A DNA stretch of 64,000 nucleotides, from positions 124,001-188,000 of the forward strand of contig JABFGB010000005.1 in NCBI GenBank assembly GCA_013112715.1, in the 5' to 3' direction. Made by a program: the position numbers and the translations under genes. The DNA is from Chloroflexota bacterium (lineage in GTDB: Bacteria > Chloroflexota > Anaerolineae > Aggregatilineales > J027). Of this stretch, positions 20,361 through 22,037 are shown in pieces (within the stretch, counting starts at the first letter, position 1; every line of letters starts with the position of its first letter). Under the pieces are notes generated by a model that saw only the letters and a program-made list of their open reading frames with translations, searched no databases and had not been told where the DNA came from.

Positions 20361-21899
20361 TTATGCCGTCGTCGAGGCCGTTCGTTGTACCCACATGGTC
20401 AGGGCGGTTTGATGACGCAATCGTTGCGAGAGTACACGCATCATTTCCAAAGCGACTTGCGGTTTGGCAAATAAGAGCGTAATCAAATCGTCGCGGGTCA
20501 ATACATAAAGGGTAACATCTTCCAAACACGTCACTGTGACCGTTGAAGGCTCACTATCCAATATCTCCATATCACCAAACGCATCCCCTAGCCCAAAAGC
20601 AGTAATGATGGTTTGCTGGTGTTGATCGTCCAAGACACTGACGACCAACTTACCCACCGCTGTAATAAATAGCTGATCACTTTTCTCGCCTTGATGAATC
20701 ACTTCATCCCCGACATGAAACTCCCGAACCGTCAGTAGCAAGGCTAAATCAACCAAGTCCTCATCGGCGAGACCATTAAATAAGGCACCTTGACGCAAAA
20801 TGCGTTTGCGTTGTTCTAATTCAGCATGGGGGACAAGGACTTGATGCTCATTCAATTGAATCAAACGGGCCAGTTGCGGTTGCTCAGTATTTAATCGATT
20901 GTCTAATTGTAACCACAGGCTACTTTCTTCTGAAGGCAGCACACTTCGCAACCAAATCCACGTATAAAGTCCCATACTCCCACGCAGAACATCTAACTGC
21001 TGCTCGGTACTCTGAAGCTGCCGATTAAGCGTCTCAACCAATTTGGCGTTTCGGCTCAGGGCGATATTTTTACGCAGGATACCCCGTTGAGCCTGCAATG
21101 TGACATATCGCTGGATGAGATGGGTACGATCTTCACCGATTGCCCCTCGGTGTTGGGCCAACAGTTGCGCCACCATTTCCGGGTTACGGGTTGCCACCAA
21201 TTCACCTGCACTCAATACCCCTGCCAATTCCAGATAAATTGCTTTACTTTCTCGTTCGAGTGTCCAGCGCATGATGATGATAATCAGAACCACGCTGCCT
21301 AGCCCCATGCCAAGTGCCGTCAGCAGCAGTTCCGCCCCCGATAGATTTTTCACCACGAAGTTAAAGCTGGCATGGATCACTATGACAATTAGGAGGCTAA
21401 ACAAGAATCGGTTAACGCGGGTACGGTTGGGAAAAGGTAGACTTGCCCCAGCGATAGTCCCCACAATCGCGGTTGTAAAACCATGTACAAGGCTAGTAGA
21501 CAGGGAGCGCGTCATAGCTAATTGCATTCCAGTATCAGGATTATTGACAACATAGACAAGGTTCTCGACCATCGCAAAGCCAATCCCGATTGCAAAACCA
21601 TAGGCCATCCCGTCAGCGGCATAGCGCAAAATTAAGCGACGCATCAAAACAATCAACAAAGCACTTTTGAGGCTTTCTTCCAAAATAGGGGCCACAACGA
21701 GACTTAGCCCCTCAACCGTTGTGAGATTCTGGTTAAGGATGAAGCGATTGAAGGCGTAGGCGATACTAAAAACCAAAATGCCCCAGCCAATAGACAACCC
21801 TAACACTTCATGGCGACTGGCAGCGTAAATTTCGAGGAGATGCACCAGATATAGAAAAAACAGGGGAATCAAAATCCCAAGCAGATAGGCCATGTACAT
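20361..21899 (-). CDS. PrsW-type intramembrane metalloprotease fused to a cyclic-nucleotide-binding-like domain
   Basis: The protein has 512 residues. Residues 1-210 hold about seven to eight membrane helices with the PrsW/CAAX-like motifs: EESLK at 74-78, AMVEN at 109-113, VHGF at 138-141 and IHASFN at 175-180. The glutamates and histidines are the expected metal and catalytic residues of an inner-membrane protease. After a charged helical linker (about 215-365), residues 373-495 form a cyclic-nucleotide-binding fold (LFNGLADEDL, DEVIHQGEKSDQLF, GLGDAFGDMEILDSE). The phosphate-binding Arg of cAMP receptors is missing: the loop reads EPSTVTV instead of R-[ST]-A-T. This cytoplasmic domain may gate proteolysis. 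No anti-sigma factor or other obvious target lies next to it. Confidence 0.85.
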   Translation of the reverse strand: MYMAYLLGILIPLFFLYLVHLLEIYAASRHEVLGLSIGWGILVFSIAYAFNRFILNQNLTTVEGLSLVVAPILEESLKSALLIVLMRRLILRYAADGMAYGFAIGIGFAMVENLVYVVNNPDTGMQLAMTRSLSTSLVHGFTTAIVGTIAGASLPFPNRTRVNRFLFSLLIVIVIHASFNFVVKNLSGAELLLTALGMGLGSVVLIIIIMRWTLERESKAIYLELAGVLSAGELVATRNPEMVAQLLAQHRGAIGEDRTHLIQRYVTLQAQRGILRKNIALSRNAKLVETLNRQLQSTEQQLDVLRGSMGLYTWIWLRSVLPSEESSLWLQLDNRLNTEQPQLARLIQLNEHQVLVPHAELEQRKRILRQGALFNGLADEDLVDLALLLTVREFHVGDEVIHQGEKSDQLFITAVGKLVVSVLDDQHQQTIITAFGLGDAFGDMEILDSEPSTVTVTCLEDVTLYVLTRDDLITLLFAKPQVALEMMRVLSQRLRHQTALTMWVQRTASTTA

Positions 21900-21941
21900 A
21901 GGAACACCCGCAATAACCTATTTAGTAATGGATGTCACTAT

Positions 21942-21954
21942 ACCATTAAATGGT
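21942..21954. promoter_or_regulatory. 13-bp palindrome in the PrsW/ppc divergent region
   Basis: ACCATT-A-AATGGT is a perfect palindrome about 43 bp from the PrsW start and 84 bp from the ppc start. On the minus strand TATAGT (21938-21943) could be a -10 box for PrsW, which would put the palindrome directly upstream of it. A protein-binding site is plausible but untested. Confidence 0.35.
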
Positions 21955-21972
21955 GAGAACGACTAAATATGC

Positions 21973-22001
21973 TTGATACCACCCCCGATATAAGCTAAAG
22001 T
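21973..22001 (+). promoter_or_regulatory. candidate promoter of ppc
   Basis: TTGATA (21973-21978), a 17-bp spacer and TAAAGT (21996-22001) form a moderate sigma70-like promoter about 30 bp before the ATG at 22038. No clear ribosome site precedes the ATG. Confidence 0.35.
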
Positions 22002-22037
22002 TTGTCCAATAGTATCCCATAATCAGAATACGCTGTC

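Follow-up and report, generated by a model that had tools for sequence, protein, structure and literature searches.

A protease of the PrsW type that carries a cyclic-nucleotide-binding (CNB) domain, in which the arginine for the phosphate of the ligand is missing, raises the question of what could set such a protease in motion. The gene in question lies in a stretch of 64,000 nucleotides from a Chloroflexota bacterium (contig JABFGB010000005.1), referred to here as the window, where an uninterrupted minus-strand reading frame of 512 codons encodes a PrsW-linker-CNB protein, P0001. Its features are collected in Table 1.

Table 1. Features of P0001 and its gene, in window coordinates.
Feature	Position	Strand	Evidence
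P0001 PrsW-linker-CNB, 512 aa, ORF including stop	20361..21899	-	ORF and Pfam
PrsW glutamic-type intramembrane protease domain, residues 1-210	21270..21899	-	PF13367, 7.9e-23; model shows seven hydrophobic helices
EESLK, residues 74-78	21666..21680	-	E74, E75, K78 invariant 49/49
GFAMVENL, residues 107-114 (F108xxxE112)	21558..21581	-	F108, E112 invariant 49/49
TSLVHGF, residues 135-141 (H139)	21477..21497	-	H139 invariant 49/49
IHASFN, residues 175-180 (H176xxxN180)	21360..21377	-	H176, N180 invariant 49/49
Helical linker, residues 211-361	20817..21269	-	Family HMM match; helices in model
C-terminal CNB domain, residues 362-512	20364..20816	-	PF00027, 1.9e-16; Z 18.7 to 3r6s_C; dN/dS
Altered phosphate-binding cassette FGDMEILDSEPSTVTV, residues 441-456 (D443, E445, S452)	20532..20579	-	Cassette comparison, HMMER alignment

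In regard to the protease half, the Pfam match to PF13367 covers residues 32-201 with 81.4 bits (cut-off 23.5), and all motifs named in the preliminary description of this DNA are in place, AMVEN at 109-113 and VHGF at 138-141 together with EESLK and IHASFN. The eight residues of the EExxK, FxxxE, His and HxxxN motifs are identical throughout an alignment of 49 rows, composed of P0001 and 48 sequences picked by hand from the 80 named loci introduced below. Against the NCBIfam equivalog NF033739 the protein scores 45.9 bits, below the cut-off of 225 bits, and on this sequence measure it is a relative of that group and not a member. The AlphaFold2 model built from the same alignment has a mean pLDDT of 85.1 and a pTM of 0.61, with a weak stretch at 324-340. 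The matches listed in structure searches with it are CNB-bearing chains, mostly covering residues 337-506. Loop charges slightly favour an N-out/C-in orientation, which would weakly place the CNB in the cytosol, while the linker matched by the family HMM is common to the family, including members without a fused CNB.

Four congeneric orthologues, with 77-91% identity, keep the reading frame, the length and the motifs, so the architecture of P0001 is not a product of chance. Within the genus (L075-L078 and the window), dN/dS of the protease lies between 0.045 and 0.141 in all ten pairs, and that of the CNB between 0.052 and 0.113 in seven of the ten, the other three being saturated. Such low values indicate that the Arg-less CNB is maintained by purifying selection and is not decaying. 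The 16 codons of the cassette taken alone are too noisy for this measure, with two values near or above 0.8.

The C-terminal part is a CNB in fold, as had been claimed for it: PF00027 matches residues 392-476 with 60.2 bits (cut-off 27.5), and model residues 363-506 superpose on cAMP-bound GlxR (3r6s_C) with a Z score of 18.7 and 1.8 Å over 144 residues. The nearest folds in the structure search are of the CRP/GlxR type, in cAMP-bound chains. The claimed absence of the phosphate-binding arginine was also borne out. The cassette FGDMEILDSEPSTVTV runs from F441 to V456, with EPSTVTV at 450-456. In the HMMER alignment to the PKA-type cassette of 5j3u, the Arg falls opposite S452 and the Ala opposite E445, so that the residue usual in cyclic-nucleotide-binding CNBs is replaced by serine in P0001. 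Having an active-looking PrsW and a true CNB fold without the phosphate Arg, the protein probably does not sense cAMP in the ordinary way, and to this extent the earlier proposal of gating by something other than ordinary cAMP is supported.

A cassette changed in a similar way is known from kinetoplastid PKA. According to section 8 of PMC10959531, the ligands of the CNBs in this kinase are inosine, guanosine and adenosine instead of cAMP; their cassette carries Gly and two Glu, with R209 replaced by a polar residue, and the Glu at the position of A202 touches the ribose 3' and 5' hydroxyls where the phosphate would lie. A corresponding Gly-acidic-x-Glu pattern, followed by a polar residue instead of the Arg, is seen in the window cassette (G442, D443, E445 and S452), with the qualification that D443 corresponds to a Glu in the kinetoplastid pattern. 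All five members of the genus share G442, D/E443, E445 and S452, and their pocket combines the acidic residue at 443 with invariant E445, S452 and T453. Glu at the A202 position occurs in these five and in none of the 80 other CNBs compared, none of which is acidic there. In the six further members that lack the Arg, it is replaced by D, P or H, and the A202 position is S or G; with Glu in none of the six, the Arg-less clade as a whole has not, by its cassettes, taken the nucleoside-type path. The nucleoside-bound PKA chains 6hyq (Z 18.1, rank 7) and 6hyi (Z 17.9, rank 14) are among the near-ties of the structure search. The structure ranking was accordingly set aside as evidence for nucleoside binding, these chains being tied with cAMP-bound ones, and profile searches did not single them out either.

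Searches of related genomes showed that PrsW-linker-CNB proteins form a large family of Anaerolineae. Matches at E <= 0.001 were present in 126 of 151 genomes of the order, many of them to the CNB alone, with full-length matches in the minority. From a scan of named genomes, the best 80 of 131 relatives were taken (L075-L154), nearly all with Chloroflexota titles; one record, L083, is titled Pleurocapsa minor, a cyanobacterium, and either its title or its binning is probably wrong. CNB-fused members make up 34 of these 80 (10 of the window clade and 24 long ones) and unfused members 46, of which L118 is cut by a contig end. The genome of the window itself holds four PrsW matches, including two paralogues (C31 and C2) of PrsW-linker-CNB type, about 600 aa long and with intact cassettes (GELALMDGQPRSA and GEFSLLDGQPRSA), one of which adjoins sigma and anti-sigma genes.

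The cassette Arg is present in all 26 long fused CNBs (24 among the best 80 of 131 relatives and the two paralogues from the window genome) and in all 48 CNBs encoded by neighbouring genes within 6 kb in the same 80, that is, in 74/74 CNBs outside the window clade, whether fused to the protease or beside it. It is found in 0/11 members of the window clade (10 among the best 80, plus the window), where S stands in its place five times, D four times, and P and H once each; in four members of this clade, Lys also replaces the ribose-binding Glu. In a tree of protease and linker, which contains 82 of 83 rows (the partial L118 was left out), the 11 Arg-less rows and the CNB-less L093 fall on one side of a 100/100 branch, so within the family compared the absence of the Arg is, by sequence, confined to one clade. 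The tree is rooted at its midpoint and the change is therefore unpolarised. Since the Arg is the usual state in CNBs that bind cyclic nucleotides, its loss in the clade would be the simpler reading. In L039, L040, L041 and L042, which form a subclade with Lys and Asp in the cassette, the next gene upstream, read in the same direction, encodes an acyltransferase in all four (PF01553, on a check of L039), which is possibly a partner of this subclade.

The two sides of the tree also differ in their gene neighbourhoods. Neighbour HMMs, derived from the clusters of genes that adjoin the first 40 loci, were run on the 80 named loci; the first 40 overlap the 80 counted and several congeners are counted singly, so the following counts are not independent. 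Among the best 80 of 131 relatives, an ECF sigma factor is encoded within 10 kb at 37 of 70 sister-branch loci, a candidate anti-sigma factor with two transmembrane (TM) segments at 34, both at 33, ParA at 45, a class III cyclase at 25, a further CNB gene at 44 and a protein termed cl8 (mostly 120-160 residues) at 44, against 0/10 window-clade loci in every case. At least one of the sought neighbours, ZR170 included, is found at 59/70 sister-branch loci and none at 11/70; 18/70 combine ECF sigma with a cyclase. Where more than 9.7 kb is available on both sides (28 loci), the counts are 19 for ECF sigma, 17 for anti-sigma, 18 each for CNB, ParA and cl8, and 13 for the cyclase, and none of the sought neighbours appears at any of the five window-clade loci with such flanks; three window-clade loci have short upstream flanks. 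As a control, twenty 20-kb stretches were chosen arbitrarily in eight of the family-bearing genomes; they gave ECF sigma once, ParA twice, cyclase once, CNB three times, PrsW once, and neither anti-sigma nor cl8. In addition, Pfam sigma70_r2 has 409 matches in 24 genomes of about 104 Mb, or about 0.08 per 20 kb.

A frequent gene order is sigma, anti-sigma, PrsW, CNB, ParA, cl8 and cyclase, as in L149 and L152, where the cyclase lies on the opposite strand. The anti-sigma candidate (cl6) consists of roughly 85-110 residues followed by two TM segments with a short loop between them, often containing GTA. It has no confident Pfam family, and its model of four helices and two TM segments, at a low pTM of 0.34, found no fold match in the PDB; its label thus rests on position and topology. 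If the loop between the two segments is its sole outer part, the trigger for this protein would likely be cytosolic. The search for anti-sigma genes in relatives, suggested at the outset, was rewarding for the sister branch only, with a candidate neither at the ten window-clade loci nor in the surroundings of the window gene. From its content, we infer that the sister-branch cluster is a cyclic-nucleotide-gated pathway of regulated intramembrane proteolysis. Its components are further linked by two fusions beside PrsW genes, a CNB-ParA protein of 505 aa (L148:7798-9315) and a CNB-cyclase protein of 780 aa (L154:10848-13190).

Several variants of the locus were also observed. In L097:6349-7836 and L104:3-1508, a cl8 domain takes the place of the CNB behind PrsW and linker. 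A 170-aa protein that combines two TM segments with a CxxC pair resembling a zinc ribbon at its C-terminus is encoded upstream of PrsW-CNB in L098 (where it is shortened), L100, L153, L056, L070 and L072, adjoining a DUF2207 protein in L056. The cyclase proteins of the clusters in L112, L116, L127 and L129 reach 1326-1512 aa, with two copies in L127 and L129, and an AAA_16 domain was identified in that of L127, the only one checked. A split version of the cluster is present in L131, from Longilinea arvoryzae KOME-1.

The surroundings of the window gene are of a different kind. Family HMMs run over the whole 64-kb window detected none of the cluster partners (sigma, anti-sigma, ParA, cyclase, a second CNB gene), and on this ground membership of the window gene in a sigma operon was ruled out. 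In the genus, the gene is flanked on one side by what we take to be an aldo/keto-reductase-like gene and on the other by a gene for PEP carboxylase, with a PEPcase match next to one orthologue; this synteny is conserved in the genus and offers no clear functional link. The 138-bp gap at 21900-22037, which separates the gene from the divergent PEP carboxylase-like gene, itself constant in position across the genus, is possibly a shared promoter region. Elsewhere in the window genome, 12 class III cyclase-domain matches are spread over 11 open frames. A toxin or CRISPR context was also considered and ruled out, the C-terminus being a CNB, unlike the PrsW-toxin fusions in the section of PMC3482391 concerned, and a literature search for PrsW with CARF domains gave unrelated work alone.

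According to the reading we prefer, at a probability of roughly 0.6, the family would be a signalling protease gated by cyclic nucleotides, and the window protein a CNB-gated PrsW with a trigger other than cAMP or cGMP and a substrate encoded elsewhere. It builds on the sequence, the CNB fold, the residue conservation, the gene neighbourhoods and the signs of selection. In the sister branch, a class III cyclase would produce the cyclic nucleotide, which would be bound by a CNB with a canonical cassette, either fused to the protease or encoded by the next gene. Movement of the stalk would then open PrsW, which would cut the anti-sigma factor within the membrane and thereby release the sigma factor. 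The window protein would likewise be a seven-helix glutamic-type PrsW bearing a cytosolic CNB on a helical stalk, with the CNB set by another ligand or by protein contact, and the protease would cut a substrate that is not genetically linked to it. This reading goes beyond what was observed in the binding of ligands by the sister branch, in gating and proteolysis, in the substrate and in the direction of evolution. It is weakened by the presence of the cyclase at no more than 25/70 sister-branch loci and together with ECF sigma at 18, by the 11 loci that have none of the neighbours, and by an anti-sigma candidate recognised from position and topology.

It is also possible, although we consider it doubtful, that the window CNB is a ligand-free module for dimerisation or docking, with a disused pocket and a protease run by partner proteins or by its expression. 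Such a role would agree with the absence of the Arg in 11/11 members of the clade, where the substitutes are unlike each other, with the Lys that stands for the ribose-binding Glu in four of them, and with the missing operon partners. However, a disused pocket would hardly be expected to retain the acidic residue at 443 and invariant E445, S452 and T453 throughout the genus, in a CNB constrained as much as the protease. The missing partners could also mean that the gene is decaying or that its product is an inactive pseudoprotease, yet every motif residue is kept and dN/dS stays at 0.05-0.14 in protease and CNB, which leaves this explanation extremely improbable. CNB-fold proteins elsewhere have varied ligands, and the domain might sense another class of them, such as a cyclic dinucleotide or heme; no feature of the sequence points to one, and we regard this as very unlikely.

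The window CNB could instead bind a purine nucleoside (inosine, guanosine or adenosine), by convergence with kinetoplastid PKA. G442, D443, E445 and S452 resemble the cassette described in PMC10959531, and the Glu at the A202 position sets the genus apart from all 80 other CNBs. On the other hand, the argument is one of residue likeness alone, the other six Arg-less members do not share the Glu, 6hyq and 6hyi are not distinguished in the structure search, and five congeners are not five independent events, so nucleoside binding is rather unlikely on the present evidence. Continued binding of a cyclic nucleotide, with S452, T453 and groups of the main chain contacting its phosphate, would be consistent with cAMP-bound chains as the nearest folds and with the cyclases of this organism. 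E445 would nevertheless clash with the cyclic phosphate, as argued for E311 of TbPKAR in PMC10959531, and the sister-branch CNBs compared all keep the Arg, which makes this alternative quite improbable. A bolder statement, in which the CNB of the window genus is a purine-nucleoside sensor switching PrsW and the sister branch runs the pathway of cyclase, CNB, PrsW, anti-sigma and ECF sigma, is unlikely to hold in both its parts.

Several known systems are related to the window protein. Bacillus subtilis PrsW is the site-1 protease for the anti-sigma factor RsiW. The window protein shares with it PF13367 and the EExxK, FxxxE, His and HxxxN motifs (as listed in PMC12943098), but the Bacillus protein is described there as a membrane protease that stands by itself, with no other domain fused to it. 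Fusions of PrsW to PilZ, cyclic nucleotide binding, FHA and Zn-ribbon domains were read as likely signalling peptidases in 2012 (PMC3482391, section 9), and the window protein belongs to the same architecture class with the same proposed role; that section gives no operon, Arg-less clade or nucleoside-type cassette. The Leptospira protein LIC_20173, presented in 2026 as a PrsW-PilZ protein (PMC12943098), resembles the window PrsW in its C-terminal non-canonical second-messenger domain and differs in that this is a PilZ domain of the c-di-GMP type, in another phylum. With both kinds of fusion in print, the suggestion that P0001 represents a new form of transmembrane signalling could not be upheld. 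The regulatory subunit of kinetoplastid PKA has in common with the window CNB the Glu at A202 and a polar residue at R209, but it is a eukaryotic kinase regulator with two CNBs, for which binding was measured (PMC10959531). The CRP/GlxR-type CNBs are closest in fold, but they belong to cAMP-bound transcription factors without a protease. Searches of the open-licence literature gave no description of the sigma/anti-sigma/PrsW/CNB/ParA/cyclase cluster or of an Arg-less PrsW-CNB, although differences in wording can hide fusions of this kind (PMC3482391). The PrsW-CNB architecture is thus not new, whereas both the cluster and the altered cassette appear to be new to the literature searched.

The Arg-less clade represents a natural experiment in the change of a CNB ligand, and the Glu/Ser exchange provides one hypothesis that is testable directly on a soluble domain of 150 residues, as nucleoside binding predicts one specific ligand and one specific disabling change. 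If this were true, a cAMP-type CNB would have been remade in the window genus by the same two changes as in trypanosome PKA, from Ala to Glu and from Arg to a polar residue. Most known cases of regulated intramembrane proteolysis respond to signals from outside the membrane. In the sister branch, if the proposed pathway is true, such proteolysis would be set off from the cytosol by a second messenger. A PrsW coupled to a nucleotide sensor in the cytosol, and encoded next to its own cyclase and the anti-sigma and sigma factors, would then work in the opposite direction, from an internal messenger through cleavage in the membrane to transcription.
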